Source: a virus
IMG/VR virus record: IMGVR_UViG_3300042557_001300
Coordinates: 1-46,521 of that record
DNA length: 46,521 nucleotides
Strand: one strand, 5' to 3'
Both the position numbers and the translations under genes were made by a program. The notes beneath the pieces were generated by a model, which saw only the letters and a list, made by a program, of their open reading frames with translations, was not told where the DNA came from and did not search any database. Shown piece by piece: positions 10,150 through 44,602 of the stretch (positions within the stretch are counted from its first letter, which is position 1; each line of letters opens with the position of its first letter).

Positions 10150-11238
10150 TTAATACGATTCACCAATACTTTTCAAGAGCCGAATAGCCTGCTTGTTTTT
10201 TGGATGCTTGATGTCTCTGGCGATATCTTTGGCTGCTGTAATCTGTTCTGGTGTATATTGCGGTGCTTTGCCTTCTTCCTTTTTAAGCTTTGGCTTGGCA
10301 CCACTCAGGCGATCAACCCTTGATTCAGACTCTTTCACATCCGCAAGTGCCCTGCGATATGTTTCACTTTCTTCAACAGGATCACCACCTTCATCCAAAA
10401 AAGCACCAAGTCTGGCTTTAGAATCGGCCAATTGGTCTTGCGCTTTTTGTAGCTCGGTTCTAGTATCTTCGGGTTCTTTTCTTCCTTCGGCGGCGACCGC
10501 ACGTTCGCCAATAACTGTATCAGTGGCTCTACGAAGCCCGCCGATATCATAGGTTTCTCTGCCCTGCTGGTCTAGTGTTTTAAATTTGGCAATGTCGGCC
10601 TCACTCAAGCCAGCCTGCAACGCCGAGCTTACTGTGTCGCTGACAACTTTATTTTGTTGGTTATCAATAACTTGAATGCTATTCGATGCTGCTTTTGTAA
10701 AGAAATCATATCTCTTTGCAGCAAGCGGGCTATCCAAAAGATAGACATCTTGTCCAATGTATTCTGCTAACTTGGATGCCGATGATGGATCGGTTGGGTC
10801 GAGGGTGCTAGAAAACTTTGCTAATCTAGCTTCTGAAGCTTTTTTATTTGCCTCTTGCTGTGCGTCAAACAAGGCGTCTTCTCGTTTTGTTTCCAAATCA
10901 AGAGTCTTGGTTTGAATGTCCAAATCCCGAAGCCTCATCGTTTTGTTAAACTCTTCCACTTGTCGCATCTCTTGTTCTTGTGCAAGATTCGCCGCCTGTT
11001 GTGCATCCCAAGCCTGTTGCATCCTGATAGCCCTGCGGGATGTGCCAGTGGGGCGACCCCCATATTGCTCTGGCAGATCAGCCACCGAAGCCCGACCCGC
11101 CGCAATCTCTGGCATTAATACGGATGCCTGATATGCCCTTTTTTCTTCGGGGCTGGCTAATGCGGATGGTGCCCACCCCCATTGACGGCGCGGATCAGAC
11201 TGGACTCGTTCCAGCATTTCTTGCTCTCTGTCAGCCAT
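10150..11238 (-). CDS. Coiled-coil virion-associated protein, unknown function
   Basis: The product has 362 residues and is rich in Glu, Lys, Gln and Ala. It has long predicted helices (about 75-130 and 265-310) and a QWGW motif near the N-terminus. I recognise no catalytic motif. It sits directly between a Pro/Gln-rich small protein and the giant polyvalent protein, the place where podoviruses encode internal virion or ejection proteins, so a minor virion or ejection role is inferred from position. The gap to the giant gene's start is 11 bases and the upstream neighbour ends 6 bases before this start, so these are almost certainly co-transcribed. ATG 11238 is preceded by an A/T-rich leader with no Shine-Dalgarno sequence. 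Confidence 0.7.
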   Translation of the reverse strand: MADREQEMLERVQSDPRRQWGWAPSALASPEEKRAYQASVLMPEIAAGRASVADLPEQYGGRPTGTSRRAIRMQQAWDAQQAANLAQEQEMRQVEEFNKTMRLRDLDIQTKTLDLETKREDALFDAQQEANKKASEARLAKFSSTLDPTDPSSASKLAEYIGQDVYLLDSPLAAKRYDFFTKAASNSIQVIDNQQNKVVSDTVSSALQAGLSEADIAKFKTLDQQGRETYDIGGLRRATDTVIGERAVAAEGRKEPEDTRTELQKAQDQLADSKARLGAFLDEGGDPVEESETYRRALADVKESESRVDRLSGAKPKLKKEEGKAPQYTPEQITAAKDIARDIKHPKNKQAIRLLKSIGESY

Positions 11239-11244
11239 TGATTT

Positions 11245-11946
11245 TTATATTCTTTGACGCCTTGTTGATAATGTTCCGTATGGTGTAAACATCTCAATAT
11301 TTTCATATTGTTTTGGAAATTCAGGAACATTTGAAGACAGAAGAGGGGACGTTGATATTTGATTTAAATTTGGACGTTCCGTTAGCCCGCTAATACTCAT
11401 AGAAACTGGATTAGTAAATTGATTTGAGGTTATTCCAAGAGATCTGTCTGGAACTATTGGAGGAGGCGTCATTCCTTGTGCTGGTTGCGGGCCACCACTT
11501 GGCATTGCTGGGGCTTGAGGCAACGACACTGGCTGCTCTTCATCATTATTCATACCAATAGATCCAAACGTTCCAAATGGTTGTGGGCGAGGTGCGGCGA
11601 AAACAGGACGCCGTCCTGCCACATCATATCCAACTTGTTGAACCTTGTTAATATCTGTATTTGCTGGAAGCCCCATACCAACAAGTTTTTCCATTCTTTT
11701 TTTACCTTCCATTCCTGCTTGTTGATAAGCCAAAGATGACTGTAACTGACCTGTTTGATAATTATCCATAAAGCTCGTACCAATGCTTGCCATTTGTGCT
11801 GGCGTCCGTTGTGGTGAACGAAACGAGTAAATAAAATTAGGGTCTGTTCCAAAACCAGAATATTGACCACGCGAAGCCGTTTCTGGCGTTGTAAATGCTA
11901 GAATTGGTGAGTATTGTGGAGCATTGCCCCTTCTTCGTCTTGCCAT
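11245..11946 (-). CDS. Pro/Gln/Ser-rich hypothetical protein of the virion cluster
   Basis: The product has 233 residues and low-complexity composition. It has an Arg-rich N-terminus (MARRRRG), an Ala/Gln-rich middle with a short amphipathic segment (about 60-90), and a Pro/Gly/Gln-rich linker (about 135-175). No known domain is visible. Its location between the probable neck protein and the coiled-coil protein suggests a structural or scaffold-like linker. The start ATG 11946 directly follows TAATACT, an element seen before other genes of this genome. Only four bases separate its start from the stop of the upstream gene. Confidence 0.65.
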   Translation of the reverse strand: MARRRRGNAPQYSPILAFTTPETASRGQYSGFGTDPNFIYSFRSPQRTPAQMASIGTSFMDNYQTGQLQSSLAYQQAGMEGKKRMEKLVGMGLPANTDINKVQQVGYDVAGRRPVFAAPRPQPFGTFGSIGMNNDEEQPVSLPQAPAMPSGGPQPAQGMTPPPIVPDRSLGITSNQFTNPVSMSISGLTERPNLNQISTSPLLSSNVPEFPKQYENIEMFTPYGTLSTRRQRI

Positions 11947-11950
11947 AGTA

Positions 11951-12925
11951 TTAAGTCATGTTTACGAGTCTGCGAGTAAGCCAAGGAGCAATTTGCATAA
12001 CCCCTTCTTGCCCTGCGTTATACTCTTTTAGTTCGGCGTTGAGAAGTAAAATTGCTCTGTCCATGTAATATTGTCCGCGCTCGACATCGGCCTTTTCTTC
12101 GGCGTTCAGGGCCATTAAGCCCAGCTTAATAGCTTCCAGAGAATCAGGATAAAGCGGATCGTTGTCGCTGATAGCCCAACAATGCTTGCGCTTGAAGATG
12201 CCTTGGACGGCATCCCAATTGCGGTCTACCAGATAGCGGCGGTAGCTGATTACCCTCTCGCCCGATTCGTATTTTGCCAAAGTGGTCGCCCCAGCCGATA
12301 GAGAGACAACGCCCGTGGTAGGGGTTTTCTCAACAGAATAGATCTCCTTAAATGTCTGGGTTGTGGTTTGGGTTCCATCTCCAAGGTCAAGACGAATTCC
12401 CTCCACTCGTTCTCCATCCACTGTAGAATAAATTTTATTCCCATTTGAGTCCTTTCCGCGAATCCAGATGTAGCTTCCTGCACACTCTGTTTCGCTGCTA
12501 GATAGGGTAAGTTGGGACGGCGTCTCCATGTCCCGAAATGTAACAAACCCCTCACCCATGTCTTGAATCGGGCCAAAATATTTCTCGTCAGCCTTACGGA
12601 TGCCGCGCCCTTGAGGAAGATACTGGTACCACTCACTCTGGACTGCTGAAGTCTTATATCCCGCCTTACCAGCCCGAATACAGGTTTCCAGATGGCGAGG
12701 AAGGGTAATGAACTTGTTGTCATTGGCATCCTCGTAGGCGGTGATCATAGCCTGAACCAAGGTGCCAACCCATTTCCCCTCAGAATGCACCCGCTCACAG
12801 AAGCGATTAATGTTATTACGAAGCTCTGCTTGCCCGTCAAAACCCTCCAAATCGGGAGGATCGGGCTGGGGCACAACGGATGTTGGTAGCCGTTCAACGG
12901 CCAATCCTAATGTAAGGCTCGACAT
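11951..12925 (-). CDS. Probable neck/tail (head-tail connection) protein
   Basis: The product has 324 residues from ATG 12925. A further-upstream start at 13012 would overlap the glycosyltransferase gene, so the internal ATG (protein beginning MSSLTLG) is preferred. The N-terminal part (about 30-90) is helical (ELRNNINRFCERV), the middle (about 130-230) is beta-rich (YIWIRG, GIRLDLGDG, VVSLSAG), and the C-terminus (about 265-310) is again helical and amphipathic (EAIKLGLMALNAEEKADVERG). A helix-beta-helix arrangement upstream of internal-virion genes is reminiscent of podoviral tail tubular or adaptor proteins. I have no diagnostic motif, so the function is inferred from architecture and position. 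It heads the leftward cluster 11951-10150-665. Confidence 0.55.
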   Translation of the reverse strand: MSSLTLGLAVERLPTSVVPQPDPPDLEGFDGQAELRNNINRFCERVHSEGKWVGTLVQAMITAYEDANDNKFITLPRHLETCIRAGKAGYKTSAVQSEWYQYLPQGRGIRKADEKYFGPIQDMGEGFVTFRDMETPSQLTLSSSETECAGSYIWIRGKDSNGNKIYSTVDGERVEGIRLDLGDGTQTTTQTFKEIYSVEKTPTTGVVSLSAGATTLAKYESGERVISYRRYLVDRNWDAVQGIFKRKHCWAISDNDPLYPDSLEAIKLGLMALNAEEKADVERGQYYMDRAILLLNAELKEYNAGQEGVMQIAPWLTRRLVNMT

Positions 12926-12971
12926 ATTCGGCGCAAAACTACCACCTTCGCCACAGAAGGTCAATAGCAGA

Positions 12972-13757
12972 TTATTCCTTGAAAAGCAAATCCGCTGAAG
13001 CCCCGCTTCCAACCCACGGCAAAAACCGTTTAAGATCTTTTATGGGCCACTCCGTATTGTTTTGTAGTCTCTCCCAATCCTCACAAGCATTCTCGTATCC
13101 ACCTTTGTATATACGTTGTTTCTGGGCCACCTGTTGCGGGGTTACCCATGCCATGTGGAGAACTGGGCCTAGCATAGCTGTTGCTTCGTCTCGTTCGCAA
13201 ATTTTGCCCCTGTTTCCATTGAATACGGGAGGTTCATGGCGCTCCATCCAAAGCCCCACACTATACCGCCAAGCCCGCACCCACTCATCTTTCCTGTTAC
13301 CGTAACCATCTGTGGATGTGGATTTTACATTAGGCCCAAGCATATATTCCATCTTGATCTTCAAGGTGTTAATTTCGGGGTTGCCATCAAAGATTGGAAT
13401 GAGATCACTCATCTGCTGGGCTGTCCACAACTCATCGCTATCCATTTGAAGCAAGACCCCATCTTTTTTAAAGGCGGTCAACGCCGCATTAATCATTTCC
13501 GTCTTCCCGCCCCATTCCGCTTTGGAGTTAACCGTGATTCGTGGATGGGACGCTAGGGCTTGCAGGAACTGGTTAGTACCATCATGTGAGACTTTCCCCG
13601 TCTGGTTGCCCATCCAAGCGGTATCTTTCTGCGGCATCGCCGCCCCCTCAACAATCGACCAATGCCAGTCGGTATCCCTTAATCGGCACAGTTCAGCAAA
13701 TTGCGCCCCGATCCACGGAGAGCCATCAAGGACAATTGTGAATATGTTGAGGGTCAC
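12972..13757 (-). CDS. GT-A family glycosyltransferase (GT2-like)
   Basis: The product has 261 residues. The GTG at 13757 is chosen as start because it forms a GTGA overlap with the upstream stop and begins with a typical GT2 first strand (TLNIFTIVLDGSPWI). The middle contains KTEMINAALTAF followed by LLQMDSDELW, where DSD is the metal/nucleotide-sugar binding DxD motif. Aromatic residues in the second half (WRYSVGLWMERHEPP) fit an acceptor-binding region. It probably transfers a sugar from a nucleotide donor to a virion, DNA or cell-surface acceptor; the acceptor cannot be read from sequence. It lies in a run of small conserved phage genes, 46 bases before the probable neck gene, and is one of three glycosyltransferase-like genes here. 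Confidence 0.8.
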   Translation of the reverse strand: MTLNIFTIVLDGSPWIGAQFAELCRLRDTDWHWSIVEGAAMPQKDTAWMGNQTGKVSHDGTNQFLQALASHPRITVNSKAEWGGKTEMINAALTAFKKDGVLLQMDSDELWTAQQMSDLIPIFDGNPEINTLKIKMEYMLGPNVKSTSTDGYGNRKDEWVRAWRYSVGLWMERHEPPVFNGNRGKICERDEATAMLGPVLHMAWVTPQQVAQKQRIYKGGYENACEDWERLQNNTEWPIKDLKRFLPWVGSGASADLLFKE

Positions 13758-13978
13758 AGCCCGTCCCAAAGATCTCCCTGACCAAGCTCGTCTAGATATT
13801 CTCCAAAGGTCACCATCTTCTGTTCGTTGTAAACGTAGTCAAACAGGTGGTCTTTAAGTTCTCCATCACCTAGTTCAAGCTCAAAGCACAATGACTCAAA
13901 GTAGGAGTCCTGAACCCTTGAGAGTTCGTTGACAAAGTCTTTGACCTTGAAAATGCTATCGTCTGGATGTGGTTTCAT
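13754..13978 (-). CDS. Small acidic hypothetical protein
   Basis: The product has 74 residues, is strongly acidic, and is predicted to be mostly helical (KVKDFVNELSRVQDSYFESL). It has no recognisable domain. It overlaps the preceding basic small gene by ATGA (13975-13978) and the following glycosyltransferase by GTGA (13754-13757), so it sits inside a translationally coupled chain. Both overlaps support it as a real gene. Its role is unknown. Confidence 0.65.
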   Translation of the reverse strand: MKPHPDDSIFKVKDFVNELSRVQDSYFESLCFELELGDGELKDHLFDYVYNEQKMVTFGEYLDELGQGDLWDGL

Positions 13979-14112
13979 TTTTCTTTAAATCCACCCTTTT
14001 TGCTCTTCATCTTCTTATAGACCTTGGGATCGATGGTTGATTTGGATTTCGGGCGGCTAGTTCCAGCTTTTTTCCGTGCATTGATATTGTCGTATAGTCC
14101 TCGTTTTTTCAT
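13975..14112 (-). CDS. Small basic conserved phage protein (KKRGLYDNINARKKAG type)
   Basis: The product has 45 residues and is very Lys/Arg-rich, opening with MKKRGLYDNINARKKAG. This N-terminal signature (GL-[YW]-x-NI-x-A-[KR]-[KR]) is familiar from many small uncharacterised phage proteins, often adjacent to a DUF6321-like gene, as here. The longer frame upstream is the out-of-phase shadow of the neighbour, so ATG 14112 is used. That ATG is preceded by TAATACT, which includes the TAA stop of the upstream gene. Nucleic-acid binding is plausible from charge but is inferred only. Confidence 0.7.
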   Translation of the reverse strand: MKKRGLYDNINARKKAGTSRPKSKSTIDPKVYKKMKSKKGGFKEK

Positions 14113-14116
14113 AGTA

Positions 14117-14374
14117 TTAGCATTCCCATTTTTTGCGCGACCAGTAATTGGCCGACAGTTTGTTGTTTGTTCCTTTGATGCCGCCAGAACGCGCACAGTA
14201 GCTTTTCTTTCGGGCTGGCTGGTCTTTCTTAATCGACATTGTTGGGTCACCAAAGCGAACCAGTTTCACTTCATCTCCCTGCTTGGCAAGGACGGCGAAT
14301 TTTTTAGGGCCGTTGGCCGTGCGCTTTGGCTTGTTATAGCCACTGAACTTTTCTCCTCTGTATTCTATGCTCAT
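14117..14374 (-). CDS. DUF6321-like conserved phage protein
   Basis: The product has 85 residues from ATG 14374, which follows the stop of the nuclease gene by five bases. The core reads KKFAVLAKQGDEVKLVRFGD followed by MSIKKDQPARKKSYCARSGG and ends in NKLSANYWSRKKWEC. This is the characteristic sequence of a small, widely distributed phage family (DUF6321-like) of unknown function. The high Lys/Arg content and conserved Cys suggest a nucleic-acid-associated role, but I see no catalytic motif. Its neighbour, the KKRGLYDNI protein, commonly accompanies it in phages. Confidence 0.75.
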   Translation of the reverse strand: MSIEYRGEKFSGYNKPKRTANGPKKFAVLAKQGDEVKLVRFGDPTMSIKKDQPARKKSYCARSGGIKGTNNKLSANYWSRKKWEC

Positions 14375-14379
14375 ATTTA

Positions 14380-15249
14380 TTAATTGGTTTTTAGGTTTCT
14401 TCCGAATTGGCAGAACTGGCGCACTCGACAGTAGTCCATACACCGCGCACAACTCCCGTCCCGTCTCTCGACGGCACCAGAAATTCTTTTTGCGTGTTCT
14501 TTAGCCTCAGATTCAGATTCGTACAACCCTCCATTAACGGCACGTTTCGCTCCTTCTTTCGGGAGAACGGCATAGATGGTGGGTTTTTCCCACCGCTCTT
14601 CTGGTGTGCAGATCGGGATCTGGTCATCGGGAAGCTCTTTCGCTTGTTGGTGGAGTGTAATACGGCTTTTGATATATGCAAACGTTTCTTCGGGCTTCCA
14701 TGCATCCAGCTTAATTTCCACAATTGCACACTTTGGATAGTCAGCTTTAATCTTGGAATCCCGCATTCTCCAATCTTTCATTACCAAGATGATGGCTGCG
14801 CGTTTCACTGGATAGCCATTGTGTTCCAATAGCAGACGATTGACCGCCGCTTGTGCTGTCCACTCAAAGCGATCATCACTCATGGCCTTGTAGACACTGC
14901 TTACCTTATAGTCATAAAGGACTTGCTCTTGCTTGTCATAGAGGTCAATCTGCCCGCCAAGCTTCACCCCGTCCACATCCATATAGAACCTCTCCTCGCA
15001 GACATAGCGTTCGGGGTTGCGCTTGGCGATCTGTTCCAGAACGTAGTGGTTGGCTGTTCCAAGCATTGTCCAAACGCGATCCGAAGCGTCTTCGGTAATG
15101 GTATCGGCATGACGCCGCATCAACTCCCGAATCTTCGGGGGCTGAAACAAGCTGGTTGTAGTGATGTCGGCTTCGCCCGAAGAATAATTGTCCTCGCTTA
15201 CTAAATCCACAAAGGGCTGGGGTAGTCCGAAGAGGTTCGTGATGATCAC
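14380..15249 (-). CDS. PD-(D/E)XK nuclease, RecB/Cas4-like, with Cys cluster
   Basis: The product has 289 residues. GTG 15249 is taken as start because it makes a GTGA overlap with the upstream gene and the protein then begins MIITNLFGLP, as relatives do. Motifs: GTANH with H68; QID with D102; DYK with D113 and K115; and the Q133-containing helix WTAQAAVNRLL. These are the RecB-type PD-(D/E)XK catalytic residues. The C-terminus has a Cys cluster CX2CX3CX5C (C267, C270, C274, C280), which may bind an iron-sulphur cluster as in Cas4/AddB. Classic Cas4 has one N-terminal Cys, so this arrangement is a variant. It probably acts as an exonuclease in phage recombination or replication. It is the clearest DNA-metabolism enzyme in the genome. 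Confidence 0.85.
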   Translation of the reverse strand: MIITNLFGLPQPFVDLVSEDNYSSGEADITTTSLFQPPKIRELMRRHADTITEDASDRVWTMLGTANHYVLEQIAKRNPERYVCEERFYMDVDGVKLGGQIDLYDKQEQVLYDYKVSSVYKAMSDDRFEWTAQAAVNRLLLEHNGYPVKRAAIILVMKDWRMRDSKIKADYPKCAIVEIKLDAWKPEETFAYIKSRITLHQQAKELPDDQIPICTPEERWEKPTIYAVLPKEGAKRAVNGGLYESESEAKEHAKRISGAVERRDGSCARCMDYCRVRQFCQFGRNLKTN

Positions 15250-33221: not shown

Positions 33222-35498
33222 CTATGCAGTTTGTGCGGCCATCGGGGGTCGGCCTGCGGGCCTTGCCGTTTTTTCAAGAATAGAACTACGGGTTTTAAGA
33301 TCATTAAGAGCCATCTGCTGACGAATAGTCTCCATCTTCTGTTGATGAGTTTCTTGGTTCATCATGCGCTTTTCCTGCATTTCTGCCAACTTGAGTTGCG
33401 CTTTTTGCATTTCCATCTCCATCTTGGGATCAATCTGTCCCTGTGGCTGTTGTCCAGCTTGCATAGCCTGTTCTTGTGCTTGGCTCTGTTGGGCCATCAT
33501 GCGGTTGATCACCTGTTGCTCAAGCTCATCGATATAAGCTGTGAGGTTTTGAAGTTGGCGCTTGAGTTCACGGACTTCTTGCGCCCGATAACTGTTGTTA
33601 GAGAAGAAGACAAGGTGTTCGGTCACATGGTCAGAAGCAGGGCGCAAGATCTGCATTGCCTGCTCGTCGGGAATTTGTTGTTGGCGATGGGCCTCAATGA
33701 TTTCGGCAATCATCGGGATATGGGCCTCAATATGCACCGCATGGTTCTGGCTATCGTGAACCATCTGCGGAATGCCCTGACGGAGGTTGCCATTCTCAAG
33801 GTTGGCGATATCAAAGTCCACCACACGGCGCGGGCCTTTATCGGAAACAAAGAGGTTAACCTTCTGCCAACCCACACCAGAGATGCCAGCAATGACGGAA
33901 CGCAGGGTGTTTTCTTTGCCCTTCTCGTCCATCAAGGAATAAAGCTCCATGAGTTGCTTGCTCGCCATTTCGGTCATAACGGGACTTCCATCACCCATGG
34001 CGCGGAATGCCGTGACCTTAAGGAATTGGCGCATACGCTCAATGGAGACTCCTCGACGCGCACAACGGCGGCGAAACTCAAGAGCAAGTTTCCCTCCCTT
34101 GTCATTGGCTGTAAGCAATGGATTAACAGCCCTGCGGTATTGCTCGGTCAAAAGCTTGTTGTAAGGAGTGTAGAAAAGCTCAAGTGCTGCGGCGTTGAGC
34201 GTGGACTCTTGACGGGCTTGCTGGACAACTTCCGTGGCAGAACGGGCTTGGCCGTCTGGAGTAGCTTGACGCGAACGATAGCTACCCGTGTTGTTCTGCA
34301 ACACTTGGCTCATCAAGTTGTAGACGGGAAGACCCTGAGTTGCCACAGCGGGAGGCTGAAGTTGGATCGGGGTCAGCCCACTAGGGATGAACGTATAAGG
34401 CCCGACCTCAATGTATTGAAAGTCTTGGATGGCTTCGGCGTCACCCTGCAATTGAATGAGTCCAGAGGTGATTGCGGCTTGGGCCGACTGACACAGAACG
34501 CGATTAGAGATCTGGATTTGGTTGTAGATCTTCTGCTTGAGTCCGCGAATCGTGTGGAAGGTTCCTTGTCCGACTCCGTAGGTGAAGATAACGAAGCATT
34601 GGTTCACGTTTCCATAGCGGGAATAACGCTCGTAGAGGAAGTCCGAAGAGTCGCGGGAGCCGATAAGCTGGGTGAACTTTCCGTCGAATTCGCGGTTGTA
34701 GCCATAGATTAGCTGGGCGCGGTGATAGGCCGATTCTCCAGCATAGAGGTCGTTTTCCTTGATTTCGCGTTCAAAGTCTTCCCAGTGGGCGGTGTAGTTC
34801 TTCCACTGATCCCGTTTGGTCGAAGCCTTCCAGATTGCCTGTTTAACTGCATTGAGATTCCAGCCCAGTTCTTTCGCGGCTTTAGGATTGCGGATGTATC
34901 GATAAAGCTCGCTCACGCTCATAGAGCGTTGGACGATGGCTACTTCGATGGACTCATCCGATACTTTGGTATCACGGGCTACCTTGAAGTCTTTGAGCCC
35001 GCAAGGCTCCCAGAAGATAGAGCGTTCATCGGGCCACATAGCGACCCCGACCCCGTCACCCACAAACTCGCGGGAAAGAAGCTGCATGTTGTAGGCATGG
35101 TCGCTCCATTCTTTAAGCATCCAATCAAATTCTTCAGAGATGATTTCGGAGTCCTCGTTGGAATCCCCATCATAGGATTCCATGATGACGTTGGCAATGC
35201 GAGGCACCCCGTTCTGGAGTTCGATATACGGGGCCAAGGCGGCTTCCATAATGGCATTTGCCTCTCCAAAGTTGGCATTTACCACATGGGTTAGCCCCTT
35301 ACTCTTTAGTTCTTCGGCATCGTAGGGAGCTTCTCCGTTGACCAAAGCTTGCGCCCGCGCCCGAAGATATGCCGCATCCTCATCTTGTTCGATATACTTG
35401 TTAGCGATTGCCACAAGGCTATCAGATGATTTGATGCGTTTTTTCGGAGGACTACCACTTTCGGGTAGATTTTCTAGTTCTGCGTTACCTGTTGCCAT
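33222..35498 (-). CDS. Portal protein
   Basis: The product has 758 residues from ATG 35498 (a TTG further upstream is in frame but lies over a TATAAT box). The sequence is helix-rich with an EIISEEFDWMLKEWSDHAYN segment, a long middle with GQGTFHTIRGLKQKIYNQIQISNRVLC, and a C-terminal Gln-rich helical region (QAQEQAMQAGQQPQGQIDPK, then EMEMQKAQLKLAEMQEK). The region YRSRQATPDGQARSATEVVQQARQE (about 400-425) is like the conserved stem/clip segment of podovirus portals. It forms the ring at one capsid vertex through which DNA is packaged and ejected. It is followed by the scaffold and capsid genes in the usual order. Confidence 0.85.
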   Translation of the reverse strand: MATGNAELENLPESGSPPKKRIKSSDSLVAIANKYIEQDEDAAYLRARAQALVNGEAPYDAEELKSKGLTHVVNANFGEANAIMEAALAPYIELQNGVPRIANVIMESYDGDSNEDSEIISEEFDWMLKEWSDHAYNMQLLSREFVGDGVGVAMWPDERSIFWEPCGLKDFKVARDTKVSDESIEVAIVQRSMSVSELYRYIRNPKAAKELGWNLNAVKQAIWKASTKRDQWKNYTAHWEDFEREIKENDLYAGESAYHRAQLIYGYNREFDGKFTQLIGSRDSSDFLYERYSRYGNVNQCFVIFTYGVGQGTFHTIRGLKQKIYNQIQISNRVLCQSAQAAITSGLIQLQGDAEAIQDFQYIEVGPYTFIPSGLTPIQLQPPAVATQGLPVYNLMSQVLQNNTGSYRSRQATPDGQARSATEVVQQARQESTLNAAALELFYTPYNKLLTEQYRRAVNPLLTANDKGGKLALEFRRRCARRGVSIERMRQFLKVTAFRAMGDGSPVMTEMASKQLMELYSLMDEKGKENTLRSVIAGISGVGWQKVNLFVSDKGPRRVVDFDIANLENGNLRQGIPQMVHDSQNHAVHIEAHIPMIAEIIEAHRQQQIPDEQAMQILRPASDHVTEHLVFFSNNSYRAQEVRELKRQLQNLTAYIDELEQQVINRMMAQQSQAQEQAMQAGQQPQGQIDPKMEMEMQKAQLKLAEMQEKRMMNQETHQQKMETIRQQMALNDLKTRSSILEKTARPAGRPPMAAQTA

Positions 35499-35522
35499 TA
35501 AAGTAGAAAGTGTAGATTGATT

Positions 35523-35528
35523 ATTATA
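35523..35528 (-). promoter_or_regulatory. Perfect TATAAT box upstream of the portal gene
   Basis: The minus strand reads TATAAT at 35528-35523, 24 bases before ATG 35498. No good -35 element lies at 16-18 bases, though TTGACT is present 3 bases upstream of it. This may be a promoter read by an activator-dependent polymerase; the evidence is weak. Confidence 0.3.
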
Positions 35529-35537
35529 TGAAGTCAA

Positions 35538-36884
35538 CTAGGAAGAAAAATTGGTAAATCCCGAAAGATCCACGGTCTGATATGTCTGTCCGCTTGGGCC
35601 AAGCGCATTGATTGTTGCCTGAATATTACTAAGAAATGAGGCATGAAGCTGGCCAGATGCTGGAAAATAATGATTACAGGTCAACACAAGATCATTGTTT
35701 ATAATGAAAAAATTTGGCAATCCGCTATCTCCACCCTGTATTCCAGAAGGTTCACCATTGTAGTTGGGGAGATCGTAATCTGGCGCAGCGGCTAAAAAGT
35801 TTTGAGGAATTCCAACAAAATCATATACTGGGCCAGATTGTGTTTTATAAAAATAGGCATACCTATTAGGGCGCTGAAGCGGCCAATCATTATCCCACCT
35901 ATAGTGACTACATGGTATGGTTGGAATATTTTTCATTGTAACGCTCGTTTCATTACCATTGTAATTATATCCAATAAAATTAACTGGCAAATAGTTGGAG
36001 AACGTTGATGGAAGAGTTTTGTATTTTTTAACAGTAGACGGCAATGCTTCTGAGAATTTAACAATTGCAATATCTGTTCCACGACCAAATTCCGAAAATT
36101 GAACTTGCATAACGGAAGCCACAGTTCTTGATACGGTTTGGTTGTTTGAGTCACAAAAATAATAAACATCTCCAACATATGGAGTATAATGATGTGCCCC
36201 TATGGCGTGGTATGGCGTTATAGCAACAACACTTCTAACTCCACCCACAGACCCAGACCTATTAACGCTTACACCAGAAAAATCAAGCGGATAGAGCCAG
36301 TGTCCAGTATTGCGAACAAATACATTATTAACAAAATCAAATGTTGAATAAATCGAATAGTGATTGGGTGGTTGCGTAGAGTTATCTGCATACTGTTGTG
36401 TTTGATTAAATATGTGATGAGCAAGAGATCCGCTAATAAAATTTTGGAACTCATTGAAAGTCGCGGTTTCTGCAAGGGTTTTTGTTTCTACTTTTTTAAG
36501 AACGGTTTCTCCACTTGTAAATACTGCGGATATTGCAGTTTCTCCAGTTGACTGGTATTCAAACAAATATTGATCAGATTCAGACTGTGATAATATTTCA
36601 TTATTTTTGCTAGAAATGTTATCTAATGCTGGAAATTTTTCTGGACGAATATTCACTAATACCCTGATATTTGTGGCAGATGTCGGATATGTATTCTGTA
36701 TATAGTTTGAATCCCCAATTGTAATTGGCGCGGAAGAGCCAGAAGAAATAGGAGTGTATTCTACCTCAAAATCAATATCAGCAGATCTATTAGCAACTGT
36801 TTGTTTTGCAAATTGTCTGGCAAAATTGGAAGTTGTTGCCAACCCGCAATCGATAGGATGATTTTTTGAAGGCTCTATGGCCAT
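35538..36884 (-). CDS. Trypsin-like (S1-fold) serine protease-domain virion protein
   Basis: The product has 448 residues. Residues 1-190 are a beta/linker domain. From about 220 a chymotrypsin-like domain can be read: VVAITPYHAIGAHHYTP (226-233; H232 in the 'AAHC' position, or H226), GRGTDIAIVKFSEALP (D271) and GIQGGDSGLPNFFI (nucleophile S387 in GDSG), with strand FIINNDLVLTCNHYF after it. This order and spacing fits the His-Asp-Ser triad of family S1. There is no signal peptide. It lies between portal and adhesin genes, so it may be a virion-borne protease cutting a host surface protein or a virion component. Starts at AUG preceded by GCGTAGTT. Function is inferred. Confidence 0.75.
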   Translation of the reverse strand: MAIEPSKNHPIDCGLATTSNFARQFAKQTVANRSADIDFEVEYTPISSGSSAPITIGDSNYIQNTYPTSATNIRVLVNIRPEKFPALDNISSKNNEILSQSESDQYLFEYQSTGETAISAVFTSGETVLKKVETKTLAETATFNEFQNFISGSLAHHIFNQTQQYADNSTQPPNHYSIYSTFDFVNNVFVRNTGHWLYPLDFSGVSVNRSGSVGGVRSVVAITPYHAIGAHHYTPYVGDVYYFCDSNNQTVSRTVASVMQVQFSEFGRGTDIAIVKFSEALPSTVKKYKTLPSTFSNYLPVNFIGYNYNGNETSVTMKNIPTIPCSHYRWDNDWPLQRPNRYAYFYKTQSGPVYDFVGIPQNFLAAAPDYDLPNYNGEPSGIQGGDSGLPNFFIINNDLVLTCNHYFPASGQLHASFLSNIQATINALGPSGQTYQTVDLSGFTNFSS

Positions 36885-36886
36885 AA

Positions 36887-38050
36887 CTACGCAATATCTA
36901 TTTCACATCCACGAACAAAACCAATCCATCTTAACGTTTTTTCAGAATCTCCAGTAACCTGAACTCTTAACTTGTCGGCTACATCATCAGCATCAATCAA
37001 AATATCATAAGCAGAATCCGACTCGCTATCGGTTCCAATTGTGGTTACAGATCCGATTAGTGATGTTGTGTTGTTAAGATTTTGAATTGCAAATTTTCTT
37101 GTGTAGTGAGCGTATTCTGTCGCGCTAGTTTCTTCAATGGCACATATATCTATCTCTCCAAAAAACGCCACATTATTAGGTATAGTTAGGAACGTATTAG
37201 TTTCTATCGCGAGTTCTGTCTGAGTTGAATTGGTGGTTCTGCCTTTTAAGATAAAAATAACAAATTGCGTTCTTTCTGCCGATCCAAAACCAGATATACT
37301 ACCAGTTGCTCCAAAAGCAAACATACTGCTTCTATCGCAATTACCAAGAAATCCAACGCTTCCAGAACCAGATATATTTGAGTTGTAACTAAATGAGTTT
37401 GCACCACTGACAGTTCTTGTTGTATTTGCTCCAAACAAACAAGAAAAATTGCCAGATACTGTACCAGATTGAGATGCGGCAATTAAAGAAAATGTAGATG
37501 TCGCCGTATTTGTTTGTCCAGATATGATTGAAGAAAAGTTACCAGAAGCTACTTGTGTTGCCTGTGATCTTTGTGCTTGCAGGTCTACAGCACCATTTCC
37601 TCGCGCATTTCCTGCGACAAATGGGCGACCTGGCCCCGACCCACCGCGATTATCTACATCATCTCCAAGATAAATATTACCAGCCAACGGAGTAGATTGA
37701 TTGGGTGGTAAACTATTCCTTAATGTTCCATCTAGCGGAAACCTTCCAACAGGAATGCCTCCTGCCGTGATTCCGTCACCAACCACAAGTTTCTTAAGAT
37801 CCGTCTCCCAGACAGGTTCACCTTCTAGCGGAGTAATAGCATTGACTTCTGCTGCTGTCCCGCGCCGAATTTGAAGGTTGGCGGGCTCTGTGATGTCTAC
37901 CCAGTCAGCATCTTTCCTTCCGTAGATAACTCCGTCTTCGGGAGCTTCGGCAAGGCCATCCCCAAAGCGCGGATCATCACCTTCCGCATAGGTGCCTGCG
38001 GTAGTGCCAGCTACTACTGGCTGGGGATAGAATGAAGAGAGGAGTGCCAT
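36887..38050 (-). CDS. Tail fibre with tropism-determinant-like N-domain and YadA-like repeats
   Basis: The product has 387 residues from ATG 38050. Residues about 55-100 have LQIRRGTAAEVNAITPLEGEP followed by ETDLKKLVVGDG, the N-terminal domain shared by phage adhesins of the major-tropism-determinant and hyaluronidase type. Residues about 140-250 hold YadA/peptidase-G2-like repeats (GAVDLQAQRSQATQVASG, then SGNFSC, SGANSF), a trimeric beta-roll. The C-terminal domain about 280-387 is beta-rich. It would attach the virion to the cell. It sits next to the serine protease gene, two bases from it. A G2-like intramolecular cleavage domain is possible but not shown. Confidence 0.7.
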   Translation of the reverse strand: MALLSSFYPQPVVAGTTAGTYAEGDDPRFGDGLAEAPEDGVIYGRKDADWVDITEPANLQIRRGTAAEVNAITPLEGEPVWETDLKKLVVGDGITAGGIPVGRFPLDGTLRNSLPPNQSTPLAGNIYLGDDVDNRGGSGPGRPFVAGNARGNGAVDLQAQRSQATQVASGNFSSIISGQTNTATSTFSLIAASQSGTVSGNFSCLFGANTTRTVSGANSFSYNSNISGSGSVGFLGNCDRSSMFAFGATGSISGFGSAERTQFVIFILKGRTTNSTQTELAIETNTFLTIPNNVAFFGEIDICAIEETSATEYAHYTRKFAIQNLNNTTSLIGSVTTIGTDSESDSAYDILIDADDVADKLRVQVTGDSEKTLRWIGFVRGCEIDIA

Positions 38051-38484: not shown

Positions 38485-41277
38485 TCAAAAACAATGTATG
38501 CGGACAAAGCCATCGCCGCCGTTGCCGCCAGCGCCACCTAAAAATCCAGAAAGCGCAGCACCGCCACCGCCGCCACCGCCGCCAAGCCCACCAGCGTTGT
38601 CTCCCGCTTGTGCGTCAGCAGTTATTGAGGCGTTGCCGCCCTTTGCGCCTGTGCCAATTTTTGGCGAGAGGCTGGGCAAAAGAAAAGATTCACGAACGTC
38701 TGTAAAGGAACTGCCCGACAGCGTTCCGCCATTAAATGCCGTTGGTGTCGCGTCGATGGAGCCGCCTGCTCGTCCGCCTTGCGTTGAGTTATTGTTTGCG
38801 CCGCCACCAGCGTTGCCAACCAAGCTGCCCGTAATTCCCGTGGCCCCGCTGCCCGCAGTCCCCAAAATGGTGGCTCCTGTTCCTGCCGTTCCTGCCGTTC
38901 CATTGGAGCCAAGAACGCCATTTTGCCCGCCCCCGCCAGCGCCTCCTGCCCCAAAAGAGGAGCTTGTCCGCAGCGTAATGTTTGGCGTGACCCAGCGCAC
39001 AGAAGTATTGCCGCCTGCCGTCCCAGTGAATCCATTGTTGACAGCAGGGCCACGGGCGGCTGCTCCTGCACCCCCCGCGCCGACGAGAACTTCAATCTGA
39101 TCTCCGCCCGTGATGCGCGTTATGAACGTGCCATATGCACCAGAACCGCCTCCTCCACCGCCGCTGCAAACAGTTCCAGATGCGCCAATTCGCCCACCCC
39201 CTCCGCCACCACCCGCGCCGATCATTGTGATGACTTGCATTGTAGACCATGACGGAATGTTCCAGACCCATGCGGAGCCAGAGCCGCCTGTGGCTCCAGA
39301 CGGGGCTGTGGCGTAGTAGAAGTCGTAGGCTTCGCTTTGCAAAGCGATGGTGCCAGAGGCATCTGGGATCGTGAGGGTTACGTCATCTGTAAGCTGCCCT
39401 TGAACATCTATTGTCGCAGTATATGGCCCTTGCTCGTCAACAAGTTTGGCGCTTGCCATAAGGATGTTGGCAAGCCCGCCGCCGTTTTGCTCGATACGGA
39501 CATTGGGGTTGCTGCCTTGCAAAAACATTTCGCCTTGGCGAAGACCAAGCAGCGCTTCATTGTTGCTTTCGTCCTGAACGGCAATGTAGGGAGTATCATT
39601 GCCGCCAGTATGTTGAAATGTTAGCTCTCCTGATTCAAATTCAATGATATCGCTTGATGCGCCGTTTAGCGAAACTAATGAAACATCATTGCCATCATTA
39701 ACAGCGAGTTGAGAAAAAGACGGAATTGGGTCTGATCCGCCCGCAACCCCGCCCGAAAGCGTGAAGCCCTCGCCGTTTTCGGGAATCTGCGACCCATCGC
39801 CCCAAATCAAAGTAGCTTGATTGGAGGGATTGGCCGAGTTCCACGCAGACAGGCGGTTAATTATCGACTGAGAGCCATTAAATGTAAGCGTGATGCTGTT
39901 GCCTGCGGTTCCAGCGGCGTTTGCGCGAACAAGAACGGGCGTGGACACCCCTTCGACTTGGACGCTGGAACTGGCCTTGACGCCCGCCGCATGGCTGGCC
40001 GCATGAGCCAGTGTTGAACTCGGCGTCCTCGCATCACTCAACCGCGCATCGTCGCCAGCGCAAAAGCTCCCTGCCGATGTGCCGAATGCGCCCGCCTCGA
40101 TGACGCCATTTGTGCCTGTCTTGAGCGGGAGGTTGGCGGTGGTGCCGATCTTGCCGTCATTTGAGAGGTTGCCGTGGGTGTGGGAGGCTTGCGCTGCGCC
40201 AATGTCTGCGGGGCCAACATTTTCGCCAATAAAAGTCGAAAGGGTGCGCCACGATGCTGTTCCATCGCCATCGCTTGCTAAAATGTCATCGGATTCCGCG
40301 CCTGTGGCGGCAAGCGCGGCGAGTTCGTGGGTGTGTGCCGTGGGGGTGCGGGCGTCTGTGACTTGGTCTGTATTTAGGAGCGTCCTTACACTACTAGCAC
40401 TTAGATCTTCGGGGTCGCCCGTGCCTGCGGTGGCCCGTCCTTTGATCGTGGCAGTCGCCATGTTGGCCAGCTTGGCGTTGGTCACTACATCATTGGCTAT
40501 TGTGGTCGCCCCGTCTCCGCTACTGGTTACCTCTCCGCTGTGATTGGGGTGGGTGTAGTTGTTGGCGTTGGCCGCGATCCCGTCCAGCTTGGTCTTATCC
40601 GCACTACTCATCGATCCCGCTGCTCCAGTAGTGGCCGCGCTGATGCTGATTGCGGGGATGGCCCCACCAGAAGAAGCGATAGGGGCGGTTCCCGTGACGC
40701 TGGTTACGCCAGTAGCTGGGGCTGCTCCCCATTCTGGTGCGGTGGAGGTGCTGTTTACTTTGAGGATCTGCCCTGCTGTGCCGATAGGAAGTCTCTCGTT
40801 GACTAGTGGGCCGCGATACAACATATCGCCTTGAGTAGTAAGTGAAAATTCTCCAGTTGCGTACCTTGGCAACACCTGCCATCCACGGGTGGCTCCTGTG
40901 TAGATTAGGGTGAAGTAGGCTCCCTCGACATTACAGACCAGATTCTCTTCTAGGCTTTCAATCCGAGATCCGTTGCGGGCAATCGTGAGAGGATTGGTGT
41001 CGAAGGTTTCGGAGAAGTCAAAGATGTCTACCGCATCACCATTGCTAGGGTTAAGTGGGAGGGTAAGAGTAAATGCGCCTCCAGAGGTGTCTGCCGCGAT
41101 TAGGTCTGCTGCTTCTAAGGTTCGGGCTGACGAGACTACGGTATAGTTGATGTCGGGCTGCGGGCCAGTCGGCCCTTGAGGGCCGCTCTCTATAATTTCA
41201 ATTGTTTCGTTTTCTTGGTTAAAAACCTCAACAATTTCAATTTCCCTCTCTGTGATCTCAATGACCTCTTGGCTCAT
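38485..41277 (-). CDS. Large tail fibre with glycine-rich tip
   Basis: The product has 930 residues. The N-terminal region has an acidic segment then a short collagen-like GPQGPTGPQ (about 32-40) and a beta-domain. The centre has typical phage-fibre motifs (DARTPTAHTHEL, CAGDDARLSDARTPSS). The C-terminal 200 residues (about 710-930) are extraordinarily Gly-rich, with runs such as GAGGGGGGGRIG and GGLGGGGGGGGAALSG. Such Gly-rich tips are known in phage adhesins that use polyglycine helices (S16 gp38-like) and in receptor-binding tips. It is the largest adhesin here. The downstream small gene lies two bases away; the upstream start overlaps the paralogous BppU-like gene by ATGA. Confidence 0.75.
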   Translation of the reverse strand: MSQEVIEITEREIEIVEVFNQENETIEIIESGPQGPTGPQPDINYTVVSSARTLEAADLIAADTSGGAFTLTLPLNPSNGDAVDIFDFSETFDTNPLTIARNGSRIESLEENLVCNVEGAYFTLIYTGATRGWQVLPRYATGEFSLTTQGDMLYRGPLVNERLPIGTAGQILKVNSTSTAPEWGAAPATGVTSVTGTAPIASSGGAIPAISISAATTGAAGSMSSADKTKLDGIAANANNYTHPNHSGEVTSSGDGATTIANDVVTNAKLANMATATIKGRATAGTGDPEDLSASSVRTLLNTDQVTDARTPTAHTHELAALAATGAESDDILASDGDGTASWRTLSTFIGENVGPADIGAAQASHTHGNLSNDGKIGTTANLPLKTGTNGVIEAGAFGTSAGSFCAGDDARLSDARTPSSTLAHAASHAAGVKASSSVQVEGVSTPVLVRANAAGTAGNSITLTFNGSQSIINRLSAWNSANPSNQATLIWGDGSQIPENGEGFTLSGGVAGGSDPIPSFSQLAVNDGNDVSLVSLNGASSDIIEFESGELTFQHTGGNDTPYIAVQDESNNEALLGLRQGEMFLQGSNPNVRIEQNGGGLANILMASAKLVDEQGPYTATIDVQGQLTDDVTLTIPDASGTIALQSEAYDFYYATAPSGATGGSGSAWVWNIPSWSTMQVITMIGAGGGGGGGRIGASGTVCSGGGGGGSGAYGTFITRITGGDQIEVLVGAGGAGAAARGPAVNNGFTGTAGGNTSVRWVTPNITLRTSSSFGAGGAGGGGQNGVLGSNGTAGTAGTGATILGTAGSGATGITGSLVGNAGGGANNNSTQGGRAGGSIDATPTAFNGGTLSGSSFTDVRESFLLPSLSPKIGTGAKGGNASITADAQAGDNAGGLGGGGGGGGAALSGFLGGAGGNGGDGFVRIHCF

Positions 41278-41642
41278 CGGGCGATCTCCTGATAGACCTT
41301 GGCTTTCCCAGTGGCAAATGCGATATAAGTATAGCCGAGGTAAAGTTCGATTTCATAGACGTTGTCGCCTGCTGTGAGGTTTGCGGCCTGTGTGGCGGTG
41401 ATTTCGATTTCGATGGTGCCCGCTGACCCGCCGAGGGTAATTCCGCTTCCAGAGGTCAATGTGAGCAAAGTGGCACTATCCTTGGCACACTCCCGAATAA
41501 CCATGTTGGCCCCGTAGCCCGAAAGATTGACTGGGACATTAGACTTCCCCTTACAAGACTTGGTCAGATAACGAAACTTCGCCGTCCATGTCTTCCCTTG
41601 GACGATTTCAACATCTCTCTCAAGTCTCCAGTAGTTGGTCAT
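41274..41642 (-). CDS. BppU-like small beta protein (paralogue 1)
   Basis: The product has 122 residues. The sequence has an opening 'VQGKTWTAKFRYL', then VPVNLSGYGANMVIRE, and GTIEIEITATQAANL with VYEIELYLG near the end. This matches a recurrent N-terminal domain of phage baseplate/fibre attachment proteins (BppU/DUF2479-like beta-sandwich). It is paralogous to 44224-44586. It overlaps both neighbours by ATGA: start against the long fibre gene and stop against the glycine-rich adhesin, so it probably connects these fibres to the virion. Confidence 0.65.
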   Translation of the reverse strand: MTNYWRLERDVEIVQGKTWTAKFRYLTKSCKGKSNVPVNLSGYGANMVIRECAKDSATLLTLTSGSGITLGGSAGTIEIEITATQAANLTAGDNVYEIELYLGYTYIAFATGKAKVYQEIAR

Positions 41643-43897
41643 TTATAAACTGGTAGCCAGAATTGATTGGTTCCAACACGAATCTCAATGAAGTCATTGA
41701 TCTGGTTGTTGGTTGCGGGGTTTGAGTTGGTGTGGTTGGTGGAGAAGTCTACAAACCCATTAACCACAAGATTGGTGGTTGCCGTCACAGTGCCAGTAGC
41801 TGTCAGAGTTCCAGATGCCGTGACATTGGAGAAGGAGACGTTGTTAGTGGCTCCGAGTTCTATGGCAGTGCGGAAGTTGGCATTGTTGGTGTTGGTGAGG
41901 GCTGGGAGGGGGATTCCTAAGTTGGTTCGGGATTCATCCTTGTTGGTGACGTTGATTGCACCTCCTACATTAATGTTGGTGATAGTGGTTACAACGCCCG
42001 TAGAGGTTAATGTTCCAGACGCTGTGATATTAGAGAAAGAGACGCTGTTGGTGGATCCAAGTTCTATGGCAGTGCGGAAATTCGTGACGTTGGTGTTGGT
42101 GAGGGCTGGGAGGCCGAGACCGAGGTTGGTGCGGGTTGTGGCAATGTTTGATGCGGCGTTTGAACCAACAAGAGAAATTGATCCATTGTCAATTTGAACA
42201 GTCCCTTGAAATGTTTGTGTTTCGGGCTCGTAACGAAGATCACCTAACCAATAAATTGCCCCATTTGAAAAATTAAGTTGCCCAGCATCCAAAGAAACAT
42301 TTTGAAAAGAAACACTATTTGTTGTTCCCAACCCCAAATTAGTTCTGCTTGCCGCCGCATTAGCTGCTGCATTGGTTCCCGAAAAATAGATAGGCTCAAT
42401 GTAGGAGATGTTATCGGCTAACATCCATGCTCCGTTGCGATACATCAGTAGAACCGCTTCATCAAGCTGGTTAAGTGTAATAAGATTAGTTGCTGCGCCC
42501 AATTGCCTGATAGCCGTCACTGCATTGGTTGAATTGGCAAGATGGGTAATAGTAGCTCTATCTCCTTCAAATGTGGTTGCGGGATTTGTGGGTAATGTCA
42601 CCGTATTGGTAACCCCAGATACCGAAGGAGCTAGGCTAAACAGAAAAAGATTGCGACTATTTGTGGCGGCATTTGTTGATGTTCCAGTAACATTTGTCTG
42701 ATATTGGACAGTTGTGGATATCGGGGCTACTGCCCAGAAATTAGTCGGGCTTACTACAGATCCACCTGTATCGACCAATACTGGATTAGTGTTAGATCCA
42801 AAAAGTGCAGCTTGGAATGTGGCTGCGTTTGTATTGGTGAGCCCAGTCCAAGGCATTCCAAGATTGGTTCTGCTTACTGCCGCATTGGATGAGGCATTGG
42901 TGCCCAAAAAAAGTATAGGCTTTCTAACAATAATTGTACCGCCTGCCGCGCCATCAATCGAAAAAAATTCAACACCATTTTGGTTAAAAAATAACGAGTC
43001 AGCCCCATAAGTTATGGAGTTTGTTATTTCTCCGTCTTGGTATAATTCAATACTTTCAAATCTAACAACATTTGTTACCCCAAGCCCGATGGCATTACGG
43101 AAGTTTGTGGCATCTGTATTCGTAAGCGCAAACCAACCCAATCCAAGGTTTGTTCTTGCGGTTGCGGCGTTGGTGGCCCCAGTTCCACCGCTTAATACAG
43201 AAAGCGTTCCATTAACATTGCTAAAATTTACTGATGGAATATTAGATGCTGGAATTTGACCAACAATATTTGTCGCCTGTAGATTTGTTAAATTTACTGC
43301 ATTACTTGAAGACAGATTTGTCAAAACAGATGAAGCAGATTGAAACGCAGTTGAAGGATTGGTTGCTGCCGTCCCAAGTCCAGTGATGTTGGCGGCAGTT
43401 AAATTTGTAAGTCCAGCGCCATTTCCATTGGTTCGCAGAATGTTTGCTGGGAAGTTTATGAGATTAGTCGCGTCTCCATTGGTGGCCAAAGCTCCAATAG
43501 TGGTTCTGGCTGCTGCGGCGTTGGTGGCGATAAACAATGCATCTCCTACTGTCGTTGAGCCTAAGTTTTGTCGGGCATTAGCCGCGTTGGTGGCTCCTGT
43601 CCCACCCTGTCCAACACTCAATGTTCCAACGATGTTAGATGCAGCAATGTTGGTTAGGCTTGAACCTTCTCCAGAAGCAAGGTTGCTAAGTATGACCGAA
43701 GACGGTTGAAATGCGGATGCAGGATTTGTGGCTGCGCTTCCCAATCCTAATCCAGCCCGCGCATTGGAGGCATCGCCACTCCAGAAATTGGTGGGCTGGA
43801 CTACAGCGTTGTTGGTTCCGACAAGAACATTGCGGGTTTGGGAGTAGCCAGAAACAACCAAGGCTCCAGAGATAAGTAGGGCAATTAAGTTTTTCAT
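41639..43897 (-). CDS. Repeat-rich tail fibre with signal-peptide-like N-terminus
   Basis: The product has 752 residues from ATG 43897. A longer frame needs a TTG at 43918, and ATG 43897 sits three bases past the upstream stop. The first 19 residues (MKNLIALLISGALVVSGYSQ in sequence context) look like a Sec signal peptide. The rest is repeats such as 'AATRTNLGLGxxALTNTNxTNFRTAI', with 'SNxxASGTLTSTG' linkers, arranged in at least six blocks. This is a long Thr/Asn-rich trimeric-fibre-like protein. The signal-like start is unexpected for a virion fibre and may be a hydrophobic virion-anchor. The two C-terminal repeats are nearly identical at DNA level (see repeat entry). Confidence 0.75.
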   Translation of the reverse strand: MKNLIALLISGALVVSGYSQTRNVLVGTNNAVVQPTNFWSGDASNARAGLGLGSAATNPASAFQPSSVILSNLASGEGSSLTNIAASNIVGTLSVGQGGTGATNAANARQNLGSTTVGDALFIATNAAAARTTIGALATNGDATNLINFPANILRTNGNGAGLTNLTAANITGLGTAATNPSTAFQSASSVLTNLSSSNAVNLTNLQATNIVGQIPASNIPSVNFSNVNGTLSVLSGGTGATNAATARTNLGLGWFALTNTDATNFRNAIGLGVTNVVRFESIELYQDGEITNSITYGADSLFFNQNGVEFFSIDGAAGGTIIVRKPILFLGTNASSNAAVSRTNLGMPWTGLTNTNAATFQAALFGSNTNPVLVDTGGSVVSPTNFWAVAPISTTVQYQTNVTGTSTNAATNSRNLFLFSLAPSVSGVTNTVTLPTNPATTFEGDRATITHLANSTNAVTAIRQLGAATNLITLNQLDEAVLLMYRNGAWMLADNISYIEPIYFSGTNAAANAAASRTNLGLGTTNSVSFQNVSLDAGQLNFSNGAIYWLGDLRYEPETQTFQGTVQIDNGSISLVGSNAASNIATTRTNLGLGLPALTNTNVTNFRTAIELGSTNSVSFSNITASGTLTSTGVVTTITNINVGGAINVTNKDESRTNLGIPLPALTNTNNANFRTAIELGATNNVSFSNVTASGTLTATGTVTATTNLVVNGFVDFSTNHTNSNPATNNQINDFIEIRVGTNQFWLPVYK
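41829..42112 (-). repeat. Two near-identical 81-base segments within the fibre gene
   Basis: Segments 41829-41909 and 42032-42112 are nearly identical in sequence, both opening GAGAA and closing GTGAGGGCTGGGAGG, with a few substitutions. Their offset is 203 bases. They encode the last two repeats of the fibre and form a ready substrate for recombination that would change fibre length. Confidence 0.75.
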
Positions 43898-43899
43898 TG

Positions 43900-44223
43900 T
43901 TACATTAGTCGCTTCCAAACTCTTTTAGTTCCAGTTTGGCTATCATAGTCGTTAGGTCGAACTATGAAAGGCAGATTTTCAGCATCTGTCCCTGAAGACA
44001 ACTGATAAATAGCAGGGATTCCGTCAATAACCAAAAAGATAACAATTCCAACGGCATAGGTTCCGCTAACTGTATTAAGACTGTCCAGATTTGTTGATCC
44101 ACCGCCATCTAATCCCGTAATCGAAGGCTCAACACGAAGGATGTTTACGCTAGGAGTTTGGATCGGGGTCGAGGACACGCCGATAACGCTAGAAGACGGA
44201 ATAGGAATACAGATCTTGCTCAT
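43900..44223 (-). CDS. Small fibre-island protein
   Basis: The product has 107 residues. It is Ser/Thr/Pro-rich at the start (KICIPIPSSSVIGVSSTPI) and has a short beta-rich second half (GIVIFLVIDGIPAIYQLSSG, ending RVWKRLM). This looks like a small carbohydrate-contacting or fibre-attachment beta protein; no known family is recognised. Its stop is three bases from the fibre start and its own start directly follows the stop of the paralogous BppU-like gene, so it is part of the fibre operon. Confidence 0.6.
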   Translation of the reverse strand: MSKICIPIPSSSVIGVSSTPIQTPSVNILRVEPSITGLDGGGSTNLDSLNTVSGTYAVGIVIFLVIDGIPAIYQLSSGTDAENLPFIVRPNDYDSQTGTKRVWKRLM

Positions 44224-44586
44224 TTATCGGGTAACCTCTGGTGAAATGATAACGTTGCCTTGCAGGATGCGGGTTGTGACGGCCCCGTTGTAAAGTTCAA
44301 GGTCATATACGGCTTTATTACAGACCGAGAGCGATGCCGTGTCAGACGCCGAAATAAATAGTCTAATAGATCCTGTAGCCTCATTCAAGACGATTCTACC
44401 ATTAGTTGTAGACAATTCAAGAATTAGTGCTTTGGATTCGGGCTTTGACCGAATATGCATCTTGGCCGTATAGCCCGCAAGATTTACAGGAGTCGAAGGT
44501 TCACCCGTCTCGTAAAACAGTGTTTGATTAAACGTGGCACCTTGGAATATGCAAATATCCGCTTCGGCAATCGGTAGTTGAGCCAT
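44224..44586 (-). CDS. BppU-like small beta protein (paralogue 2)
   Basis: The product has 120 residues from ATG 44586. A TTG three codons upstream would also be in frame. The sequence follows the same pattern as 41274-41642: IFQGATFNQTLFYE, TPVNLAGYTAKMHIRSK, GSIRLFISASDTASL, VYDLELYNGAVTTRILQGNV and EVTR at the end. This is the BppU/DUF2479-like attachment domain found at the N-terminus of many fibre proteins, here as a free protein. The stop abuts the next start, TAA-ATG. It lies just downstream of the terminase, a place where small fibre attachments are often found. Confidence 0.65.
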   Translation of the reverse strand: MAQLPIAEADICIFQGATFNQTLFYETGEPSTPVNLAGYTAKMHIRSKPESKALILELSTTNGRIVLNEATGSIRLFISASDTASLSVCNKAVYDLELYNGAVTTRILQGNVIISPEVTR

Positions 44587-44602
44587 AAATGGCAAATAGA
44601 AT

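Follow-up and report, generated by a model that had tools for sequence, protein, structure and literature searches.

Most of the known phage-tail enzymes that open a way to the host act on carbohydrates (tailspike depolymerases). The chymotrypsin fold is old, and proteases have already been annotated or reported in phages. PA-PP (PP141_gp30), a particle protein of a PB1-like Pseudomonas phage that has been called a serine protease on the basis of a Mascot search, is reported to act on casein and on a host porin (PMC6748951). Likewise, trypsin-like serine protease genes have been annotated in T4-like Sinorhizobium and Rhizobium phages (PMC10783043); tblastn searches of a phage collection with queries from the family described below returned no such genome. 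A search of openly available journal papers found none that describes a protease with the chymotrypsin fold in the tail-fibre cassette of a phage.

The DNA analysed here, hereafter referred to as the window, consists of one IMG/VR virus record of 46,521 nucleotides (IMGVR_UViG_3300042557_001300, positions 1 to 46,521), with its structural genes on the minus strand. A first-pass annotation of this record had described an ORF for a trypsin-like protein of 448 residues between the portal and fibre genes. This ORF (hereafter referred to as P0001) is present, on the minus strand, and is flanked by a portal candidate and by the gene of a fibre with an Mtd_N domain, hereafter referred to as the partner fibre (Table 1). 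The stop codon of the partner fibre gene lies 2 nt from the ATG of P0001, the G+C content of which is 38%, versus 48% for the window. The portal candidate had no Pfam or PHROG match supporting its name, and none was found among named phages. Downstream of P0001, the portal candidate is accompanied by a scaffold-like gene (weak Phage_scaffold match), and then by a capsid-like gene, named from its position alone. No leader peptide was evident by eye in P0001.

Table 1. Position of P0001, its domains and predicted catalytic residues, and the adjoining genes in the window.
Feature	Position	Strand	Basis
Trypsin-like protein gene P0001, 448 aa	35538..36884	-	ATG at 36884; ORF list, relatives
Partner fibre, 387 aa, anchor MALLSSFYPQPVVAGTTAGTYAEG plus Mtd_N domain	36887..38050	-	Pfam, locus comparison
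Mtd_N domain of partner fibre	37766..37873	-	Pfam PF18454, E 2.9e-10
Portal candidate, 771 aa, adjoins cassette	33222..35537	-	Named from size and position
Conserved motif NHPxDCGLATTxxFARQFAKQTV, residues 1-32	36789..36884	-	Alignment of relatives; modelled as disordered
Ig-like (Big_2-like) beta-sandwich, residues 33-140	36465..36788	-	Separate model; weak match
Predicted chymotrypsin-fold protease domain, residues 174-430	35595..36365	-	AlphaFold2 model, Foldseek, second structure aligner
H226, invariant in family, chymotrypsin position 51, non-catalytic	36207..36209	-	Alignment and model
Predicted catalytic His, H232 (His57 equivalent)	36189..36191	-	Alignment and model
Predicted catalytic Asp, D271 (Asp102 equivalent), immediately ahead of strand 272-277	36072..36074	-	Alignment and model
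Predicted catalytic Ser, S387 in GGDSG (Ser195 equivalent)	35724..35726	-	Alignment and model

Several other genes of the window were recorded in passing. A single ORF of 3157 aa (665-10138, minus strand) contains a possible metallopeptidase motif, HEVGH, recognised by eye. The gene at 41639-43918 (minus strand) encodes a fibre-like TN-rich repeat protein with a Sec-like leader (e.g. MKNLIALLISGALVVSGYSQT), which is odd for a phage structural protein; Sec-like leaders also start fibre-like TN-rich repeat proteins at loci L023, L028, L039, L047, L050, L054 and L063. Two phrog_1084 paralogues (41274-41642 and 44224-44595, minus strand), with weaker matches to 'tail fiber protein assembly', are possibly fibre-assembly proteins.

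Relatives of P0001 were gathered from viral contigs and bacterial genomes, and the resulting multiple sequence alignment of 29 rows reached relatives down to 21% identity. The AlphaFold2 model obtained with this alignment (pLDDT 78.7, pTM 0.73) has many blocks above a pLDDT of 90 in the protease domain, and poorly modelled loops around residues 332-377. Its best Foldseek matches in the PDB were chymotrypsin-like proteases or their complexes, including chymotrypsin, plasmin and thrombin (E about 1e-7), and a second aligner superposed it on bovine chymotrypsin (4q2k) with a Z-score of 17.4 and an rmsd of 3.0 over 197 residues. The residues proposed in the first-pass annotation (H226 or H232, D271 and S387) lie at the numbers given, and the modelling that it had called for yields a predicted chymotrypsin fold. 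Its choice between two histidines is settled in favour of H232. In the model, strand 226-230 and turn 231-233 correspond to the W51-A55 and A56-H57-C58 segments of chymotrypsin, and HMMER, at an E value of only 0.24, aligned 'PrHiifAaHy' of P0001 with 'PNHVLTAAHC' of chymotrypsinogen C; H232 is therefore equivalent to His57, and H226, which falls at position 51, was ruled out as the catalytic residue. D271 precedes strand 272-277, as D102 precedes its strand in chymotrypsin, such that H232, D271 and S387 follow the His-Asp-Ser order at the canonical secondary-structure positions of the modelled fold. Nine columns were invariant in the 29 sequences (P224, H226, H232, F243, D271, P282, G385, S387 and G432). 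The triad is more than a chance pattern, because H226, H232, D271 and S387 are among these few columns. The complete triad, which had been sought in homologues, was present in all 29 sequences, and is H232-D271-S387 according to the alignment and the model. P0001 can accordingly be described as a predicted serine protease of the chymotrypsin fold, with all three triad residues present.

No match above the curated cut-offs was obtained for MEROPS family S1 or for Pfam Trypsin and Trypsin_2: the P0001 domain scored 20.4 bits against Trypsin_2 (cut-off 27.6), and a bacterial relative scored 16.9 bits against Trypsin (cut-off 20.6). More generally, no family of Pfam, NCBIfam or PHROGs covered the trypsin-like domain above its cut-off, and PHROGs returned no match for P0001 or its domain relatives other than for part of one distant relative (see below). 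Direct sequence searches of the PDB with P0001 or a 3-row profile gave no match; the 29-row profile retrieved only chymotrypsinogen C, at the E value quoted above, and one irrelevant entry, and hhalign to chymotrypsin aligned the His region alone, with low probability. Of the earlier terms 'trypsin-like' and 'S1-type', the first is upheld by the model and the triad in the sense of a clan PA chymotrypsin fold, whereas membership of family S1 is unproven, as scores against the Pfam trypsin models stay under the cut-offs. 'Clan PA, chymotrypsin fold' is the better name for the predicted class. P0001 has no recognised counterpart of the Ile16 activation site.

The region preceding the protease domain has two parts. 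Residues 1-32 have pLDDT values mostly below 50, yet are strongly conserved, with N8, P10, C13, G14, A16, T17, T18, F21, R23 and K27 invariant, and constitute a candidate virion or fibre docking peptide. The model of residues 33-140 weakly resembled Big_2 domains (best Z-score 7.3, rmsd 2.2 over 72 aa; Foldseek E >0.03) and the Ig domains of phage tail tubes. The corresponding Ig-like part of the distant relative L113 matched phrog_215, annotated as 'structural protein with Ig domain'.

The genomic position of P0001 was compared across related phages by a scan with the portal candidate, which identified 80 loci. In most of these, high DNA similarity extended across the capsid, scaffold and portal genes and stopped at the start (5' end) of the portal gene, at about 35489-35541 in the window. 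The 66 loci with enough upstream sequence were divided into 44 slot types, 6 with a trypsin-like domain; in phages with near-identical portals, the slot was occupied by other genes, several of them encoding pectate-lyase-like tailspikes. This break in similarity, the diversity of slot types and the presence of several such spikes are the marks of an exchangeable host-recognition cassette. A search of whole records revealed no trypsin-like domain in 18 of 20 sister records, which had been picked mainly for the lack of this domain at the slot, several being 44-70 kb long and all possibly incomplete; the other two contained the fused form described below. The P0001 gene is therefore optional in this phage group.

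The partner fibre and its relatives start with an anchor peptide, MA(S/L/N)LS(A/S)(Y/F)YP(L/Q)PVVxGTTAGTYAEG, that also starts the pectate-lyase-like tailspikes of sister phages (L020, L021, L027, L030 and L097) and fibres of about 795 aa bearing a trypsin-like domain at the C-terminus (L059-L062, L065 and L099). This fused form was found in two sister groups; its fibres have no Mtd_N domain, and it lacks the N-terminal motif that is conserved in the separate proteins. The trypsin-like domain thus occurs in two forms, as the C-terminus of a fibre or as a separate protein beside a fibre with the anchor. In every lineage examined among IMG/VR contigs with a P0001-type N-terminus, the separate protease directly follows an Mtd_N gene, with a spacing ranging from 2 nt to an overlap. 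The pair was also present on records with no match to the window portal (L007 and L008) and on a 4-kb fragment (L113), and all 11 loci identified with the Mtd_N fibre as the query also carried the protease. In the wider family the pairing has exceptions: upstream of the copies at L118, at L141 and in podovirus MW202510 (L120), no Mtd_N gene was recognised. At L009, L012, L013 and L014, protease dS ranged from 0.04 to 0.25, versus 0.35 to 0.68 for the portal, as expected if the cassette moved between phages after their cores had diverged. Values of dN/dS from 0.08 to 0.19 among close protease copies show that the gene is under purifying selection. An 898-aa phage protein at L118 (4993-7689) has two tandem trypsin-like domains, with triad motifs in both.

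Bacterial genomes were scanned with a profile from a narrow alignment of the family. The members identified came from metagenome-assembled genomes (MAGs) titled Verrucomicrobiota, Kiritimatiellota and, in several cases, Patescibacteria, together with one genome titled Streptomyces griseus that is probably mislabelled. Many of these proteins have leader-like hydrophobic N-termini and repeat or surface-type regions (by eye), several of those with such N-termini are large and modular, and the exported-looking members keep the triad in the absence of any fibre. Among 289 genomes from the phylum to which a Kiritimatiellae MAG belongs, 36 gave a match, which in some cases was weak. In a family tree with several long branches and an arbitrary root, the Mtd_N-linked phage group (10 rows) was separated from the rest with support of 100/100. 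P0001 had no tblastn match among named phages, and other family members used as queries had one distant match there, in the uncultured podovirus MW202510. The match at L134/L140 adjoins a tape-measure gene. The L141 copy (27% identity to P0001) is located in a prophage-like stretch near chromosomal dnaG and ftsK-type genes, beside GDSL-lipase and tail-fibre-like genes (10676-15137). The genome belongs to the phylum that includes Kiritimatiellae, and the stretch offers a clue to which bacteria such phages infect. No close prophage of the window phage was found. A portal relative with 22% identity occurs in a stretch (L142, 9836-18281) of a 489-kb contig from a genome drawn from the phylum of the Kiritimatiellae MAG; this stretch is likely a prophage and gives a weak hint about the host of the window phage. 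A Verrucomicrobiota-type host for this phage is only a lead.

We infer the virion location, docking, enzymatic activity, substrate and role in entry of P0001 as follows. P0001 is probably a virion-borne protease that is associated with the fibre and cuts a protein of the host surface; it would be to proteins what a depolymerase tailspike is to polysaccharides. Its N-terminal motif may attach it to the virion, and the docking site is probably the Mtd_N fibre encoded just upstream, or a place beside it, but docking by this motif is a guess, because the natural fusions lack it. The Ig-like domain would serve as a spacer; the protease domain, at the C-terminus, would face outward and cleave a host surface protein (S-layer, adhesin or outer-membrane protein) by means of the H232-D271-S387 charge relay, clearing the path to the receptor or permitting irreversible binding. 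The analogue in sister phages would be the polysaccharide-degrading role of the pectate-lyase-like spike in the same slot. The strongest argument is that position and anchor are equivalent to those of depolymerase-like spikes, and the fusion to fibres with the shared anchor suggests that P0001 is present in the virion. The best explanation is that P0001 is an optional part of the receptor-binding apparatus. The original description of a trypsin-like serine protease in a virion/adhesin island is supported by the fold predicted for P0001, by its invariant triad and by the exchange of the slot with tailspikes, and the cutting of a host surface protein appears to be the best-fitting use.

The protease might instead cut the adjoining Mtd_N fibre, or itself, during assembly, rather than host proteins. 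The tight pairing with the Mtd_N gene, at 2 nt here and with an overlap in some relatives, is what a fibre-maturation enzyme would display, but the domain is also fused to fibres without Mtd_N, it persists with its triad in exported-looking bacterial proteins devoid of any fibre, and neither the tandem form of L118 nor the L141 copy has a recognised partner; we consider maturation less likely than host-surface cutting, and unlikely in itself. It is improbable that the chymotrypsin fold is retained purely as a binding module of an adhesin: His, Asp and Ser are invariant in 29/29 sequences and selection is purifying, although the gene is optional, is linked to adhesins and diverges fast, and the surroundings of the serine are altered in L008 (GCSG) and in L065 and L131 (GDSS), all three of which keep the triad.

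Two further readings place P0001 away from the fibre. The lack of an evident signal peptide, and the location of the related L141 copy near lysis-like genes, would suit a late, unpackaged protein degrading host proteins within the cell or at lysis, which we nevertheless regard as highly improbable given the cassette shared with spikes, the fusion to fibres bearing the spike anchor and the position of the gene between fibre and portal genes. The gene also adjoins the portal and scaffold candidates, as might that of a head or portal maturation protease. This role is very unlikely, to the point of being barely credible, because no copy is present on the records of many sister phages whose portals are nearly identical; a capsid-maturation protease was ruled out on the same grounds, the gene being absent from the records of sister phages that share the head genes.

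In addition to the virion-borne role favoured for P0001 itself, a broader proposal, on which we are evenly divided, is that the family is an unnamed, dedicated tail-borne group of chymotrypsin-fold proteases common to phages and to surface proteins of Verrucomicrobiota and Patescibacteria, acting in phages as protein-degrading counterparts of polysaccharide tailspikes, either fused to fibres or in a two-gene form with Mtd_N. If this is true, protein layers of the host surface, in addition to surface sugars, would act as a barrier that phages can digest, or as a receptor. A concrete function would be predicted for a family that has no entry in PHROGs, Pfam or NCBIfam, and the family may be a marker of phages that infect Verrucomicrobiota-type hosts. 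What appears to be new is the family as such, its occurrence in a fused and a two-gene form in a tailspike slot open to exchange, and the fact that exported-looking bacterial proteins share it.

P0001 is like chymotrypsin and trypsin (clan PA, S1; PF00089, PF13365) in its predicted double-barrel fold, its H-D-S order, the DI(A/T)hhK(F/L) strand after the Asp and the GDSG motif. It differs from them in having a similarity below the Pfam cut-offs, no recognised Ile16 site, an invariant His at position 51, an Ig-like N-terminal domain and an adhesin-cassette context. The likeness to PA-PP is drawn from the published description of that protein. The partner fibre shares the Mtd_N domain (PF18454) with Mtd of Bordetella phage, but differs from it in its C-terminal part; no reverse transcriptase or variable repeat was noticed in a non-systematic inspection of the window. 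The pectate-lyase-like tailspikes occupy the same slot, are swapped there between near-identical phages and have the anchor common to the fused forms and the partner fibre, whereas P0001 has a predicted protease fold rather than that of a beta-helix lyase, and its predicted substrate is a protein.
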